From the NCBI GenBank assembly GCA_018817385.1, contig JAHIUA010000053.1, forward strand, positions 1-38,648: 38,648 bases of DNA. Direction: 5' to 3'. Below, one piece after another: positions 20,881-27,822 of the stretch. The translations under genes and the position numbers were made by a program. Each line of letters starts with the position of its first letter. Position 1 is the stretch's first letter. Source of the DNA: Pseudomonadota bacterium. GTDB taxonomy: Bacteria > Desulfobacterota > Desulfobulbia > Desulfobulbales > Desulfocapsaceae. The notes below the pieces were generated by a model. It ran no database searches. It saw nothing but the letters and a program-made list of their open reading frames with translations, and was not told where the DNA came from.

Positions 20881-21723
20881 CTATTTGGCCCACAGATAAA
20901 ATCCTACACCGCTTGCCGCTAGCCAGATATTGGTGATATTGGAGACCGTGATGTTGAGGATGGCGGCCAGAGGTTTGTTGCGGCTGAGCAGAGCCAGGCA
21001 GGACTTGAATTCAGGCCAGGAAGTGAGTGTGGCCAGGACTAGAAAACCAATTACTCCCTTTGGTGTCTTGGAATGTTCGGCGGCAAAAGAGACCACAGGG
21101 TCGAGAAAAAAACCGGCTCCGCAAAGAAGGATGATGGCAGGGAAAAACCAGGCTCTGGCCTCGGGATGATACATTTCGTCGCTCTCCTCTTCCCCTTCTG
21201 TGGGCCTGAAGAAAAAGAGAGGAATGGTTACAAGCAAGGCGGCAAGGAGCCAGAATGGGTAGAGCGACTTGTCTAGCAGGTAAAAACCAATGGCCAGGGA
21301 GGCAGTTGAGAGAATGGTGATCAGGCTGTAGATGGGCCTTGTCTTGAAAGTCTGTAAAGTTCTCCCGCAGATGATGGCAGCAGTGAGGAGCAGAATTGGG
21401 TTTATGAAATTTGACCCCAACGGGGTGGAGGCCGCAAAAAGGACATCGCCGACCGCCAGACCTGCAATAAGGCAGAGGGCCTCCGGGCCATTGGTGATAA
21501 ATCCGGTGATGGTTCCGATCCCTTTGATGTGCTTGATGGACTCGATGATGATCTCTATGGACAAGCCGATGATCATCATTTCAACAATAATACCACAAGC
21601 CCCGATAAATGAGAGTTGTACGTTTCCGTGAAAAAACAGGGAACTGCCGCAGAAAAATGCGAGAACCAGCAGCCAGACCACCAGGTCCAGAGTGTTTACC
21701 GAGTTCAGCATAAGCTGTTTCAT
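20881..21723 (-). CDS. CaCA-family (sodium/calcium exchanger-like) membrane protein
   Basis: The 280-residue protein has about ten hydrophobic helices and two related alpha-repeat-like motifs. The first is TGFITNGPEALCLIAGLAVGD then STPLGSNFINP. The second is LATLTSWPEFKSCLALLSRN then NITVSNITNIWLA. They replace the usual GTSLPE and GSNIFN signatures of CaCA exchangers, keeping the acidic residue after Pro (PE in both) and the SN pair. So it is a divergent cation/proton or cation/sodium antiporter; the ion cannot be told. An acidic loop (PTEGEEESDE) splits the two halves. Its ATG overlaps the stop of the upstream UGA-containing thioredoxin-fold gene (ATGA), implying co-translation. Confidence 0.75.
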   Translation of the reverse strand: MKQLMLNSVNTLDLVVWLLVLAFFCGSSLFFHGNVQLSFIGACGIIVEMMIIGLSIEIIIESIKHIKGIGTITGFITNGPEALCLIAGLAVGDVLFAASTPLGSNFINPILLLTAAIICGRTLQTFKTRPIYSLITILSTASLAIGFYLLDKSLYPFWLLAALLVTIPLFFFRPTEGEEESDEMYHPEARAWFFPAIILLCGAGFFLDPVVSFAAEHSKTPKGVIGFLVLATLTSWPEFKSCLALLSRNKPLAAILNITVSNITNIWLAASGVGFYLWAK

Positions 21724-21971
21724 GAGTGGTGTACTCTTTGTAAAAATGCTTCTATTTGGGCACGATTAAGTAATATTCCACTTAATTGTTCATCGCCATA
21801 CTTGAGAGTGGGGATAAATTTAACCCCGTCCCTAAGGGTACGCAGGGGATTAGTGAGCACCTCAACTTCTTCCAGGTGAGCATCATCCAAGTTTAGTAGC
21901 AACTCATCCAGAGCTTTTTTAGCCATGCGGCAGCGAGGTCAGAGGGTGGAATGATAGAAGGTCAGATTCAT
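21720..21971 (-). CDS. Thioredoxin-fold selenoprotein, UPRC active site (UGA read as Sec)
   Basis: Reading from ATG 21971, the frame gives MNLTFYHSTL, then TGA at 21941-21939, then PRCRMAKKALDELLLNL and onward to a stop at 21722-21720. If TGA is selenocysteine, the product is 83 residues. It has a first strand (LTFYHS), a U-P-R-C redox motif at 11-14, the following helix, EEVEVLTNPLRTLRDG, the cis-Pro loop KFIPTLKYGD, and the last strand and helix. This is a complete minimal thioredoxin/glutaredoxin fold with the redox cysteine in exactly the expected place. Starting at ATG 21926 would give 68 residues lacking strand 1 and both catalytic residues. AGGAG lies 14 bases upstream, a long spacing. 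A short GC-rich stem-loop can form just after the UGA but I cannot confirm a SECIS. Its stop overlaps the exchanger start. Confidence 0.82.
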
Positions 21972-22071
21972 GGTTTCTGTTACAGCTCCTTTTCTGATGT
22001 TTTGTGATATGCTGGGGTGTTAGGGAGTATCTTGTGTGCCGGGATAATGAGATGTTTTGTACCAATAGTAG

Positions 22072-22101: not shown

Positions 22102-22151
22102 GAATGCTGGAATATGATCAATGAAAGTTTTACGCTTCGGGGAATGTGACA

Positions 22152-23108
22152 ATGTCTGCACCTCTTACTATTATTACTGATCAACGCTACCTTGAGCATG
22201 ATACAGGTGGAGGACAACATCCAGAATCCCCGGCCAGGCTTAAGGCTATTTATCAGGCATTGGAGGCAAGTTCTTGTTTTAGCGATCTCTCTTATGTCCT
22301 TCCTCGTGTTGCTGAGCGCGAATGGCTTATGAAGGCCCATAGCGAGGACTGGCTTTTTCGTTTTGAGGAATCAGTTCTTACCGGTAGAACCTATATTGAT
22401 CATGATGATAACCAGATCTGCTACGACTCCTTTGATATTGCCTGCCTTTCTGCAGGTGCCGGCCTTACCGCTATAGATCTGATCGAAGAAGAAAAGGCTC
22501 GCAATGTCTTCTGCCTGATTCGTCCACCAGGGCATCATGCTGAACGTAACATTCCTTTTGGCTTCTGTTTTTTAAACAACTGTGTTATCGCGGCTCGATA
22601 CTGGCAACACTGTTACGGTAAAAAACGTATCCTGGTTTTTGACTTTGATGGCCACCATGGGAATGGCATTCAGTCTGCTTTTGAAGATGAGGCTGCCGGC
22701 TACTATATCAGTATCCACGAACATCCAAGTTTCAGTTATCCGGGTACCGGTTATGGAGATGAACATGGATTGGGAGAGGGCAAAGGAACAATCCTTAATC
22801 TCCCTCTCTCACCAGGTGCCGATGATGCGAAAGTCATAAAACTTCTTCGCGAAATCATCCTGCCGCAGGTTGAGGAGTGGCAGCCGGACGCGATCATTGT
22901 GGCAGCAGGATTTGACGCTCATCGAGAAGACGATATGACAGGGCTGCAATACTCCACGGAACTGTACCATACCATAGGCTTGGCCATGCGTCATTGGGCT
23001 GAGCGTTTCACCGAGGGCAGAATTCTCTCTATTCTAGAGGGTGGTTATGAAATTTCTGTGCTTGGAGACTCAGTGGAAGCCTATGTCAGGGGACTTCTGG
23101 GTAGATAA
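22152..23108 (+). CDS. HDAC-family deacetylase (AcuC/HdaH-like)
   Basis: The 318-residue protein is an arginase-fold zinc amidohydrolase of the class-II/bacterial histone-deacetylase family. It has the substrate-channel opening DTGGGQHPESPARL, RPPGHHAER (catalytic H128, H129), FDFDGHHGNG (zinc ligands D166, H168), GFDAH (D255) and LEGGYE near the end. All metal and catalytic positions are present. Targets in bacteria are acetyl-lysine on proteins or small acetylated amines. ATG 22152 has GGGGA 9 bases upstream. It heads a plus-strand cluster with an acyl-CoA synthetase and a GNAT fusion, consistent with removing acetyl groups that the GNAT adds (inference). Confidence 0.9.
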   Translation: MSAPLTIITDQRYLEHDTGGGQHPESPARLKAIYQALEASSCFSDLSYVLPRVAEREWLMKAHSEDWLFRFEESVLTGRTYIDHDDNQICYDSFDIACLSAGAGLTAIDLIEEEKARNVFCLIRPPGHHAERNIPFGFCFLNNCVIAARYWQHCYGKKRILVFDFDGHHGNGIQSAFEDEAAGYYISIHEHPSFSYPGTGYGDEHGLGEGKGTILNLPLSPGADDAKVIKLLREIILPQVEEWQPDAIIVAAGFDAHREDDMTGLQYSTELYHTIGLAMRHWAERFTEGRILSILEGGYEISVLGDSVEAYVRGLLGR

Positions 23109-23137
23109 CATGTTTTTTTTACCGATAAAGGCGGATC

Positions 23138-23776
23138 ATGTATATTTCACGACATATGACAGCTGAGCCGATTACTGTTTCTCCGGCCATGCTTCTCCCC
23201 GAGGCCAGAGCCTTGCTCAACGAATATCAATTTCGACACCTGCCTGTGGTCGATGGCGATGGCGTCTTGTTAGGAATGCTCACGGACCGTGATTTACGAT
23301 CCGCGTATCCCTCATCAGTTCTCAGTAACAGTGAGCGTCGACTGATCTACGAAAAAGTTGAAAAGACCACTGTTGCCGAGATCATGTCCACAAATTGTGT
23401 TACCCTGGGACCCGATTCCACCTTGGATGATGCCCTTTTTCTCTTTGATCGGGATCAGATGGGTGCGCTGCCGGTTCTCGAAGATGGGAGAGTGGTCGGT
23501 GTCTTTTCTATCAGAGATTTAACCACAGCCTATAAAAATCTTTTTGGTGTTGGAGAAAAAGGATCTATACTTATAGGTATTATAGATGATGGTAGTCCTG
23601 GTATCATGACTCGGATAGTTACCCTGCTGGAAGAACACGATATACCTTTTACCAGGCTGTTGCGTATTCAATATAAGAAGGATGGGAACACCATCTTTCT
23701 GCGGATTAATACATTTAAGGTCGGGAAAGTATACAAACTCCTGGAGAACGCGGGGTTAGTTATAAAACGAGCCTGA
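23138..23776 (+). CDS. Two-CBS-domain protein with C-terminal ACT-like region
   Basis: Residues about 1-60 and 75-132 form a pair of CBS motifs (MTAEPITVSPAMLLPEA, HLPVVDGDGVLLGMLTDRDL, then EIMSTNCVTLGPDSTLDDA, ALPVLEDGRVVGVFSIRDL). These normally bind adenosyl nucleotides. Residues about 140-212 (ILIGIIDDGSPGIMTRIVTLLEEHDI) look like an ACT small-molecule domain. There is no catalytic domain. It lies 29 bp after the deacetylase and 51 bp before the ADP-forming synthetase, so a role sensing AMP/ATP for this cluster is an inference. The same CBS-ACT pairing is often beside such synthetase genes. Confidence 0.85.
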   Translation: MYISRHMTAEPITVSPAMLLPEARALLNEYQFRHLPVVDGDGVLLGMLTDRDLRSAYPSSVLSNSERRLIYEKVEKTTVAEIMSTNCVTLGPDSTLDDALFLFDRDQMGALPVLEDGRVVGVFSIRDLTTAYKNLFGVGEKGSILIGIIDDGSPGIMTRIVTLLEEHDIPFTRLLRIQYKKDGNTIFLRINTFKVGKVYKLLENAGLVIKRA

Positions 23777-23827
23777 TTTTATAATCGAACCAGTTACCTT
23801 TCCTTCTCTTTTTTCAAAGGTATTGTT

Positions 23828-25936
23828 ATGACTATAGATACACTTTTTCATCCCAAGAGTATCGCCATTGTTGGGGCTTCAAGAACAGCCGGAAAGGTTG
23901 GTCATGATATCCTGGCCAATTTGATACGCGATGGGTATCAGGGAACAATTATTCCCATCAATCCTTCTGCCGAAGAGCTGCTCGGGCTCCCTTGTTTTCC
24001 ATCTCTGCAAAAATATGGAAAAGATGTTGATCTCGTGGTGGTGGCAGTTCCACAGGCCCTGGTCAGGGAAGTTGTGAAAGAGTGTGTGAAGGTAAAGGTC
24101 AAGGCTATGGTTCTTACCAGTGCTGGCTTTCGGGAGTTGGGTCCGGAAGGATTAGCTCTGGAACAGGAGCTGCTGGACCTCTGCAGGCGTCATGATATCC
24201 GCCTTCTGGGGCCCAACTGCCTGGGTCTCATTAATACTGAAAATCATATGAACGCCTCTTTTGCCGGGAATATGCCCGCATCTGGTGGAATTTCTATTTT
24301 TTCCCAATCTGGTGCCCTGTGTACGGCCATGCTTGATCTTGCGGCAGAACGACATCTTGGTCTTGCCAAATTGATTAGTATCGGGAATAAGGCAGATATT
24401 TCTGAGGTGGATATTCTCTCTTATCTGGCAAAAGATGAACAGACAAAAGTCATAGTCGGGTATCTGGAAGATATTTCCACCGGCAAGAATTTTGTAAAAG
24501 CTGCAGAAGACGCTTCTTCACAGAAACCTGTGGTTATCCTTAAAGCAGGCACCACTGCTGCCGGTTTGCGGGCTGCGGCCTCCCATACCGGGGTGCTGGC
24601 AGGAGCCGATACAGCTTATGGAGCGGCTTTTAAACGGTCCGGTGTTGTTCGGGCAGATAATTTTGAAGCCCTTTTTGATTATGCAACGGCCCTTTATATG
24701 CAGCCTCTGCCTAAAGGGAATAATATTCTAATCATAACCAACGCAGGTGGTCCAGGAACGATGGCCGCCGATGCCGTGGAACGAGCTGGAATGCGAGTGG
24801 CCGAACTGGATCGCAATACGTCCAGTGCCCTTCGTGATCGACTTCCCCGGGTAGCCAGTGTCGGCAATCCCATTGATGTCTTGGGAGATGCAGATCCTGA
24901 ACGTTACGTGGCAGCCATTGAGGCGGCCCAATCTGACCCTGCTGTGGATGCAATCCTTGTAATTCTTACTCCCCAGGCCATGACTCGTTCTACAGAAACT
25001 GCCCTTGCCATCGCTAAGACCATTGACGGCACTAAACCGGTGGTGGTCTCTTTTATGGGAGGAACCAATGTTATGCCTGGGCGAAAAGAGCTGGCAACAG
25101 CCGGCTTCCCGGATTATGACTCTCCGGAACGGGCTGTTGCAGCCCTCAAGGGAATGCGTGAATATGCGGCTTGGAAACAGCGGCCCCCCCGGAGAGTGAC
25201 CCGTTTCCGGGTCAACAGAAGGAGGGTGGAGCGAATCCTCTCACGTCGTCAACGCATTGGTCTCTTGCAGCTGGGTGAGATCAAGGGCAAGGATGTCCTT
25301 GGTGCTTATGGATTTCGTATTCCCATAGGAGCCCTTGCCTCTTCCTCCGAAGAGGCAAGAGAAATAGCAGAACGTATCGGGTTTCCGGTGGCCATGAAAA
25401 TCGTCTCTCCTGATATTGTCCACAAAAGTGACCTGGGTGGCGTTCACCTCAACGTGGCTAATGGAGAGGCCGCCGAAGATATCTATGATCTGATGACCAT
25501 AAAGATTGGCAAAAAGGTTCCAGATGCCAAGATTGAGGGGGTCTATGTGGAGAAGATGGCCTGTAAAGGCCTGGAGGTCATTATCGGTATGACCCGTGAT
25601 CCTCAGTTTGGCCCCATGCTGATGTTTGGTCTGGGTGGTATTTTTGTCGAGGTAATGAAGGATGTCACCTTTCACCTGGCACCTATCACAGCCCAGGAAG
25701 CAATACAGATGCTTATGACTACCAAGTCCTATGCGATGCTTGAGGGACGGCGTGGGAATAAGGGGGTTGATATTGCAGCCATCGCTTCAGGTCTCCAGCG
25801 CATAAGTCAGCTGACCACAGACTTTCCACAGATTTTGGAATTAGACATTAATCCGTTTATTGTTGGCGACTTTGGCTCCGAACCAGTGGTGGCAGATGTA
25901 CGAATGACATTGGCACCATTGCCGGAAGAGAAATAG
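23828..25936 (+). CDS. Acetate-CoA ligase (ADP-forming) / acyl-CoA synthetase, alpha-beta fusion
   Basis: The 702-residue protein fuses both subunits of NDP-forming acyl-CoA synthetase, which interconverts acyl-CoA + ADP + Pi with acid + CoA + ATP. The CoA-binding Rossmann domain opens FHPKSIAIVGASRTAGKVG. The phospho-histidine lies in ASHTG (H253). SQSGALC is the ligase-CoA signature. A linker rich in Arg follows (about 430-465), then the ATP-grasp beta domain with VLGAYGFRIP and MKIVSPDIVHKSDLGGV. It resembles Pat/AcdA proteins but has no GNAT of its own; the GNAT is on the next gene. It starts 51 bp after the CBS gene with AAAGG upstream, and the next gene is 8 bp away. Confidence 0.92.
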   Translation: MTIDTLFHPKSIAIVGASRTAGKVGHDILANLIRDGYQGTIIPINPSAEELLGLPCFPSLQKYGKDVDLVVVAVPQALVREVVKECVKVKVKAMVLTSAGFRELGPEGLALEQELLDLCRRHDIRLLGPNCLGLINTENHMNASFAGNMPASGGISIFSQSGALCTAMLDLAAERHLGLAKLISIGNKADISEVDILSYLAKDEQTKVIVGYLEDISTGKNFVKAAEDASSQKPVVILKAGTTAAGLRAAASHTGVLAGADTAYGAAFKRSGVVRADNFEALFDYATALYMQPLPKGNNILIITNAGGPGTMAADAVERAGMRVAELDRNTSSALRDRLPRVASVGNPIDVLGDADPERYVAAIEAAQSDPAVDAILVILTPQAMTRSTETALAIAKTIDGTKPVVVSFMGGTNVMPGRKELATAGFPDYDSPERAVAALKGMREYAAWKQRPPRRVTRFRVNRRRVERILSRRQRIGLLQLGEIKGKDVLGAYGFRIPIGALASSSEEAREIAERIGFPVAMKIVSPDIVHKSDLGGVHLNVANGEAAEDIYDLMTIKIGKKVPDAKIEGVYVEKMACKGLEVIIGMTRDPQFGPMLMFGLGGIFVEVMKDVTFHLAPITAQEAIQMLMTTKSYAMLEGRRGNKGVDIAAIASGLQRISQLTTDFPQILELDINPFIVGDFGSEPVVADVRMTLAPLPEEK

Positions 25937-25944
25937 GGAAAATC

Positions 25945-27822
25945 ATGGAATACGACGCGAATTGGAAAGAAACCTATAAAGACATGATCATGACCCCGAA
26001 ACGTGCCTTGTCTCACCTGAAATCAGGGCATCGGGTGTTTCTCGGTACTGGCTGCGGTGAACCGACGGTACTGGTCGAGGCCATGACCAAGATGGCAGGA
26101 AATCTGGCAGATGTGGAAATTGTGGAGTTGCTGACCAAAGGAAATGCACCCTATGCCGATAAAAAATATAGCAGCTGTTTTAAGATAAATTCCTTTTTTA
26201 TCGGTCATAATGTTCGCGATGTTATCCAGGAAGGAAGAGGAGATTATACCCCTATTCTCATGTATGATATCCCGCGCCTTTTTAATTCAGGACAGCTGCC
26301 CCTGGATGTGGCCCTGATTCAGGTTACCCCTCCCGATGCCCGGGGAAAAATGAGTTTAGGGGTGTCCGTGGATATTGTTAAAAGTGCCGCTGAAAATGCC
26401 TCTTTGGTTATTGCCCAGGTCAATCCGCAGATGCCCTGGACCAGAGGTGATAGTCTCATTGATGTGTACGATCTCGATATCCTGGTTCCGGCCGATGTTC
26501 CGCTCCTGGAGCGTAAGTCCCAGCCGGCACACGCGGTCAGTGAAAAGATTGCCGAATTGGTTGCAGCTCTGGTTCCCAGTGGCTCTACAGTAGAGTTCGG
26601 CATTGGCCGAGTCCCTGGAGTCGGTCGGATTTCACAGGCCGTCATGGCTGCCCTCAAAGGAAAACATGATCTGGGGATTCATACGGAAATGATCACCGAT
26701 GATCTTCTCGATCTGATCAAGTCAGGAGCTGTGACAGGTAATAGGAAATCCACAGATCGTGGCAGGATAGTGACCAGCTTTTGTATGGGGACCAAGGAAC
26801 TCTATGACTTTGTCAATGATAATCCTCTGTTTTCCTTCAGGCCCACAGAATACGTAAATGATACAAATGTGATCGGCAAACAGACTCGCATGGTTTCCAT
26901 TAACATGGCTCTGGAAATTGACCTCACAGGACAGGTTTGCTCCGATTCGGAAGACGGTGTCTTTTATTCAGGAGTTGGCGGACAGGTGGACTTTAATCGA
27001 GGGGCAGCCCGTTCCGATGGGGGAAGGGCCATCATCACTCTTCCATCGACCACCCGGGATGGTAGATCGAGAATTAATGCCCGACTGAGCGTGGGATCCG
27101 GGGTGGTAGTAAGCCGGGCCACTGTTCATTACGTGGTCACCGAATACGGCGTAGCATATCTGCACGGGAAATCGGTACAGGATAGGACCTTGGCTCTTAT
27201 TGCCATTGCCCATCCTGATCATCGTGAACGACTTCTCAAAGACGCCATTGAGGCAAAATTTATTCGTCAGGATTTTGTTCAGATCGAAGGAAAATTCGTA
27301 GTGGCACCCCAGGATATGATGAGGACCACGTATCTCCTTGATGACGGGACCCAGTTTCATTTCAGGCCAATCCATCCCACGGATGAGCCGCTGATGCGTG
27401 ATTTGCTCTATGCCCTTTCTCAGGAAACTTTGTACTACCGTTTCATGAGCCATAACCAGCGATTCGGGCAGCGTGAAATACAGAATTTTGTCTATGTGGA
27501 CCATCGTAAGGATGTGGCCATTGTCGGCACCCTGCCTGAGGCCCATGGCGATAACATGGTAGCCGTGGGAAGATACTATCTTGATGAGAGTACAAACCTG
27601 GCCGAGGTGGCCTTTATCATCCGTGATGAGTGGCAGAATAAGGGACTGGGAACCTTCCTCTTCCGACATCTGATTACCCTTGCCAAGGCGAGCGGTATAT
27701 CCGGTTTCACTGCCGAAGTTCTGCGTGATAATAAGCGGATGCAGGCTATATTCAATCACTCTGGATATAAGGTGCAGAGTGTGGTGGAAGAGGGTGTTTA
27801 CAGCTTCAAAATTGAGTTTTAA
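25945..27822 (+). CDS. Acetyl-CoA hydrolase/transferase fused to GNAT acetyltransferase
   Basis: Residues about 1-440 are an acetyl-CoA hydrolase/CoA-transferase of the 4-hydroxybutyrate CoA-transferase type: HRVFLGTGCGEPTVLVEAM, DGVFYSGVGGQVDFNRGA, and VTEYGVAYLHGKSVQDR with the catalytic glutamate. Residues about 455-625 are a GNAT domain (FHFRPIHPTDEPLMRDLLY, then the acetyl-CoA loop WQNKGLGTFLF and a final HSGYKV). So one chain both transfers CoA and may acetylate a protein or small molecule. It follows the ADP-forming synthetase by 8 bp, which in this setting would supply or consume the same acetyl-CoA. GGGAA precedes ATG 25945. Confidence 0.92.
   Translation: MEYDANWKETYKDMIMTPKRALSHLKSGHRVFLGTGCGEPTVLVEAMTKMAGNLADVEIVELLTKGNAPYADKKYSSCFKINSFFIGHNVRDVIQEGRGDYTPILMYDIPRLFNSGQLPLDVALIQVTPPDARGKMSLGVSVDIVKSAAENASLVIAQVNPQMPWTRGDSLIDVYDLDILVPADVPLLERKSQPAHAVSEKIAELVAALVPSGSTVEFGIGRVPGVGRISQAVMAALKGKHDLGIHTEMITDDLLDLIKSGAVTGNRKSTDRGRIVTSFCMGTKELYDFVNDNPLFSFRPTEYVNDTNVIGKQTRMVSINMALEIDLTGQVCSDSEDGVFYSGVGGQVDFNRGAARSDGGRAIITLPSTTRDGRSRINARLSVGSGVVVSRATVHYVVTEYGVAYLHGKSVQDRTLALIAIAHPDHRERLLKDAIEAKFIRQDFVQIEGKFVVAPQDMMRTTYLLDDGTQFHFRPIHPTDEPLMRDLLYALSQETLYYRFMSHNQRFGQREIQNFVYVDHRKDVAIVGTLPEAHGDNMVAVGRYYLDESTNLAEVAFIIRDEWQNKGLGTFLFRHLITLAKASGISGFTAEVLRDNKRMQAIFNHSGYKVQSVVEEGVYSFKIEF

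Follow-up and report, generated by a model that had tools for sequence, protein, structure and literature searches.

Introduction

Trx, Grx, SaoT and UXX-star are included as Sec-containing forms in the accessible part of a table from 2026 that covers 119 selenoprotein families (PMC13188914), and the accessible part of an account of Desulfotalea psychrophila gives 12 selenoproteins for this organism, none of them named Trx or Grx (PMC1794560). In the bSECIS model, as set out in the sections of the former source available to us, an upper stem of 4-16 bp carries a loop of 3-9 nt with a G within the first two loop positions, 16-37 nt from the UGA, and the MFE is <= -7.5 kcal/mol (PMC13188914).

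In this study, we analyze a stretch of 38,648 nucleotides (hereafter the window) from a genome placed by NCBI taxonomy in the Desulfocapsaceae, Desulfobulbales, Desulfobulbia. Judged from sequence comparison, the window very probably encodes a small thioredoxin-like selenoprotein in which UGA is decoded as selenocysteine (Sec) at the active site. We recognized no entry as this redoxin in the part of the 2026 table that we could compare; because Grx and Trx are defined broadly in the accessible part of that source, through their Pfam domains, some of the family may be counted under those entries (PMC13188914). Neither the redoxin family nor its pairing with an exchanger gene, described below, was present among the literature matches listed, in a search that left subscription papers mostly outside its scope. 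The redoxin and its relatives, with UGA read as Sec, appear to form a Desulfocapsa-type selenoprotein family not recognized in the catalogues compared.

Results

The redoxin gene encodes an 83-residue thioredoxin-fold protein on the minus strand, in the frame MNLTFYHSTL-UGA-PRC-RMAKKALDEL and onward to a terminal TGA at 21720-21722 (Table 1). A sequence-only reading of this DNA had proposed that the TGA of the U-P-R-C motif lies in frame on the minus strand as the first residue of the motif, which was confirmed by translation and by the codons of homologues. It had also predicted that conventional annotation would give a truncated 68-residue protein; this was borne out by ORF calling without read-through, which returned only a 68-aa ORF (21720-21926) starting at an internal ATG.

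Table 1. Positions of the redoxin gene, the exchanger gene and associated elements in the window
Feature	Position	Strand	Basis
Putative Sec-containing thioredoxin-like redoxin gene, motif U-P-R-C, 83 residues	21720..21971, including TGA stop	-	Translation, homologues, AlphaFold2 model
In-frame UGA, predicted to be read as selenocysteine, residue 11	21939..21941	-	UGA/Cys codon comparison
Apical hairpin resembling bSECIS, stem of 5 bp (with one G-U pair in the window), loop UGGAU, 28 nt from UGA to loop	21901..21915	-	RNAalifold, 31 sequences
Short 3-bp hairpin between UGA and apical hairpin	21922..21931	-	Paired in 31/31, nearly invariant, hence uninformative
Possible ribosome-binding site AAGGAG, 14 nt upstream of the ATG, a long spacing	21986..21991	-	Sequence; absent from some relatives
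Gene for a CaCA-like cation exchanger of 280 aa, downstream of redoxin and co-directional with it	20881..21723	-	PF01699 31.3 bits, cut-off 24.9
ATGA, redoxin stop overlapping exchanger start (4 nt)	21720..21723	-	Sequence; similar overlaps in genus

Redoxin matches, nearly full-length and spanning the UGA, were found in 98 of 144 related genomes, most of them draft assemblies and the window's own genome included. The best match in each genome contained a single inner TGA or no stop, with the sole exception of G138 (one TGA and one TAG), in which the TAG is the terminal stop of that gene. The codon at the UGA position was TGA in 39, TGC in 35 and TGT in 23 of 97 sequences, and the 98th homologue, G065, has the motif CPRC, so that position 11 is UGA in 39/98 and an aligned Cys codon in 59/98 genomes. 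G065 was read separately and left out of the protein alignment, tree, neighbor comparison, 97-sequence codon reading, folding z-scores and motif and overlap counts; L120 and L123, missed by tblastn, were left out of the 95-row protein alignment and tree and included in the codon reading. The second Cys of the motif is retained in 96/97. In the window's genus the gene is present in 18 of 20 genomes, always with TGA, and the assemblies of the two members lacking it are 76% and 72% complete. A Met at the internal position (codon 16) occurs in 32/39 Sec forms versus 9/58 Cys forms; relatives do not, as a group, start at the internal ATG, this Met being rare in Cys homologues.

A profile search across the class matched 161/257 genomes at E <= 0.001, with further in-frame TGA matches among them (matches without a codon-level reading), and in a phylum-wide draw 7/395 genomes matched at E <= 1e-10, all seven from the same order as the window. 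No redoxin relatives were found among the viral contigs scanned.

Homologues align from the first residues, upstream of the UGA. Among the 18 copies of the window's genus, pN/pS is 0.186 for codons 2-10, before the UGA, 0.166 for the 14 codons after it, and 0.92 for the 27 nt upstream of the start; by these ratios, the codons preceding the UGA are under purifying selection.

Exchange between Sec and Cys can be followed among close relatives. Within genus g5, the 57 nt from the position-11 codon are identical save for TGC versus TGA between G039 and both G080 and G074, and the same single difference separates G023 from G071; G116 and G130 of genus g39 make a looser Sec/Cys pair. Parsimony places nine Sec/Cys changes on the 95-row tree, which is built on few columns and leaves 26 forks open, and at least five of them are forced by well supported branches. 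The Cys-form copies L126 (in G039) and L128 (in G023) retain the hairpin sequence found downstream in Sec-form relatives, which is likely, from the sequences compared, to be a fossil SECIS left after a UGA-to-UGC change.

The machinery for Sec insertion is present in the window's own genome, in which selA (606.8 bits), selB (373.1 bits), tRNA-Sec (75.8 bits) and two selD genes (376.2 and 347.4 bits) score above their cut-offs and ARAGORN reports a tRNA-SeC with anticodon TCA. The two selD paralogues (L145 and L146) each contain one in-frame TGA, and both are probably Sec-containing themselves. Among the 144 relatives, selB is above cut-off in 125, including 35/39 Sec-form versus 54/59 Cys-form genomes; the Sec-form genomes in which it falls under the cut-off (G003, G016, G017 and G071) are all draft assemblies. 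Because selB is similarly common with either form, it permits Sec and does not predict it.

When 31 Sec sequences from the window's family, in genera g1, g5 and g9, were folded jointly with RNAalifold, a hairpin with a 5-bp stem emerged downstream of the UGA, from +27 to +41 with the UGA counted as +1 to +3. It is paired in 31/31 sequences, with changes on both sides in two pairs and with loops UGGAN or UGUAN. With the 29 non-identical rows, 0/500 shuffles reached the observed covariation score, the paired percentage or the number of double-changed cells, but 84/500 reached the count of double-changed pairs (2), and 84/500 that of additional pair types (6); kinship among the Sec sequences weakens these tests. 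Eight Sec sequences come from other families of the order, and six of them have a hairpin with loop NGGNN at +21 to +33; in the remaining two (G130 and G136, genus g39) one hairpin pair is broken. For these eight genes the double-changed pairs were reached by 348/500 shuffles and the further pair types by 478/500. The difference in register (+27 to +41 versus +21 to +33) suggests separate origins.

Compared with synonymous recodings over 45 nt, the mean folding z is -1.64 in Sec genes (n = 39) and +0.29 in Cys genes (n = 58), a contrast inflated by relatedness. The hairpin of the window itself is weak (57-nt MFE -8.4, z about 0), and its support comes from the alignment. Checked by hand, it fits the bSECIS model in loop, spacing and stem length, and the energy limit of that model is reached only over 57 nt, the best 24-nt stretch having -4.6. 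Rfam SECIS_1 (RF00031) had no match in the genome and none in 14 control genomes either, and is therefore uninformative; no Rfam family matched at its gathering score anywhere in the window.

The AlphaFold2 model of the redoxin, built from 12 sequences, is thioredoxin-like (mean pLDDT 88.2) with a helix starting at residue 12; a Foldseek search with it ranked thioredoxins first, and the best solved relative of the 12-sequence profile is the thioredoxin 1fo5 (E 2.8e-9). Pro54, invariant in 37 redoxin members, is the candidate Pro of the cis-Pro loop. As far as the model predicts, the protein has the marks of a thioredoxin fold: helix 1 opens with a (C/U)xxC motif, and the predicted cis-Pro loop carries a conserved Pro.

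Directly downstream of the redoxin gene lies the CaCA-like exchanger gene. PF01699 matches only its C-terminal part, and the Glu of the PE motif is invariant, where present, in both putative alpha-repeats (Glu81 43/43, Glu238 42/42). A phmmer search of the exchanger against the PDB gave no match at E <= 1, and its AlphaFold2 model is poor (pLDDT 48.5), so that fold and Cys geometry in it are unreliable. The sequence-only reading had linked the redoxin to this gene through an overlap of the redoxin stop, and this part of the claim stood; it had called the exchanger divergent, which was wrong, the two genes being on the same strand.

Strong exchanger matches (E below 1e-70) occur in 43 of 144 genomes and weak matches alone in 19 more. 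In 41 of the 43 the redoxin gene immediately precedes the exchanger gene and shares its strand (40 genomes from the neighbor comparison, plus G065 from match positions), and these span 10 genera of one family. In G030 and G066 no redoxin was seen upstream, and each retains three of the four exchanger cysteines. The redoxin stop overlaps the exchanger start in 17/18 members of the window's genus, as ATGA in 5, GTGA in 10 and TTGA in 2, with start codons assigned by position. The redoxin beside an exchanger is a Sec form in 20 cases and a Cys form in 21, and the redoxin without one is a Sec form in 19 and a Cys form in 38; an association of Sec with the exchanger was looked for among the 98 homologues and not found.

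The cysteines of the exchanger are conserved as Cys84 in 43/43, Cys25 in 39/43, Cys119 in 39/43 and Cys242 in 39/42. Cys119 and Cys242 are lost jointly in G020, G037 and G049, all of genus g2, and G030 lacks Cys119 alone; this pattern, perhaps from one event, is a hint in the sequences that the two may form a pair.

Clusters that include the HDAC-like gene are neighbors of the redoxin in 36/97 genomes and those that include the CBS gene in 47/97. On the plus strand beside the operon, 22146-27822 holds what we take to be HDAC/AcuC-like, CBS-domain, acyl-CoA synthetase-like and acetyl-CoA hydrolase/GNAT-like genes. Other neighbors common to the unlinked redoxins presumably include cupin, peptidyl-prolyl isomerase, folP and ftsH genes, which they resemble.

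Discussion

The proposal that this locus encodes a selenium redox protein had been accompanied by calls for Cys homologues at the UGA, for homology upstream of it and for sel genes. All three were found, and together with the conserved hairpin they argue for the proposal. SelB and tRNA-Sec would decode the UGA, aided by the hairpin, with 28 nt between the UGA and the hairpin loop. By the chemistry of the thioredoxin family, the active site Sec-Pro-Arg-Cys may then cycle between a selenol/thiol and a selenenylsulfide.

What such a protein does for the cell is a matter of lesser confidence. The redoxin gene is probably cotranscribed and translationally coupled with the exchanger gene, and the redoxin might reduce or sense thiols of the exchanger, so that cation exchange would answer the redox state. 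Tentatively, we regard this role as likelier than any other in these genomes. It is also quite possible that the selenoprotein is a general thiol reductase and that the exchanger is an operon neighbor without functional tie. The redoxin family is indeed broader than the exchanger (98 versus 43 of 144 genomes), and 57/98 homologues do not adjoin an exchanger of this family and have other common neighbors instead. However, the exchanger is seldom found without the redoxin, the adjacency recurs across genera, stop and start overlap in nearly all members of the window's genus, and the exchanger cysteines are conserved.

An extension of the exchanger-thiol role, in which selenium supply gates exchanger production and the selenoprotein then controls the exchanger by thiol exchange, is in our view unlikely. 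It is suggested by the overlap of the exchanger start with the redoxin stop in the genus, where 12 of the 17 starts are GTG or TTG: a ribosome terminating at codon 11 for want of Sec may not couple to exchanger translation. If true, such gating would make the locus a selenium- and redox-gated transport operon.

Returning to the UGA itself, it is very improbable that it is an ordinary stop, with a 68-residue product made from the internal ATG and the upstream codons left untranslated or forming a tiny leader. Such a product agrees with the mechanical ORF and with the internal Met of most Sec forms, but that Met is scarce in Cys forms, the homologues align from their first residues with Cys in place of UGA in the majority, codons 2-10 are under purifying selection, and the truncated form would be left without strand 1 and without either active-site residue. 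Although the sources are mostly draft assemblies, there is next to no chance that the TGA is a sequencing error or the mark of a pseudogene, since 39 genomes share this TGA, among them G008, an assembly of two contigs, and selection is maintained on both sides of it in the genus. All three readings, ordinary stop, pseudogene and sequencing error, are rejected.

Gene callers that stop at UGA would yield no more than the 68-residue piece, or would overlook the gene, in the window as well as in other Sec-form genomes. The natural single-base Sec/Cys switches, the nine changes of which five are forced, and the two hairpin registers make this family a good system for studying the gain and loss of Sec. 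Moreover, its recurrent pairing with the exchanger makes control of ion transport by a selenoprotein directly testable.

It remains to compare the locus with described families. At cut-off, no Pfam or NCBIfam model was listed for the window redoxin; in the scans of 37 redoxin members, the 36 besides the window protein were compared by E-value only, and some may pass a cut-off. The redoxin has the thioredoxin fold and a UxxC motif in common with Sec-containing glutaredoxin (PF00462) and thioredoxin (PF00085), yet falls below the cut-off of both (20.7 versus 22.9 bits and 17.6 versus 23.5, respectively). From the Sec-containing Trx and Grx in the accessible part of the 2026 table it is distinguished by its 83 residues and its motif U-P-R-C (PMC13188914). 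Mycoredoxin (TIGR02200) is its best NCBIfam match, at 28.1 bits far under the cut-off of 89.5, and is matched by 25/37 redoxin members at E <= 0.01. The MJ0307 family thioredoxin (TIGR00411; PDB 1fo5) is of similar length and is matched by 35/37 at E <= 0.01, although the window redoxin, at 22.9 bits, remains below the cut-off of 92.75. The UXX-star and distant Grx-like selenoproteins (NF041114, NF041211, NF041212 and NF047338) are likewise small and Grx-like; at E <= 0.01, NF041212 and NF047338 are each matched by 5/37 redoxin members and NF041211 by 1/37, and NF041114 does not appear in the list of 18 families from that scan. According to the part of the source available, NF041114 and NF041211 carry other Sec motifs, UxxT and GxGU (PMC13188914). 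The partner gene, finally, has the C-terminal repeat in common with CaCA exchangers (PF01699, TIGR00367), whereas its score with TIGR00367 is far under the cut-off (19.7 versus 179.65), and its family is set off from CaCA exchangers by four conserved cysteines.
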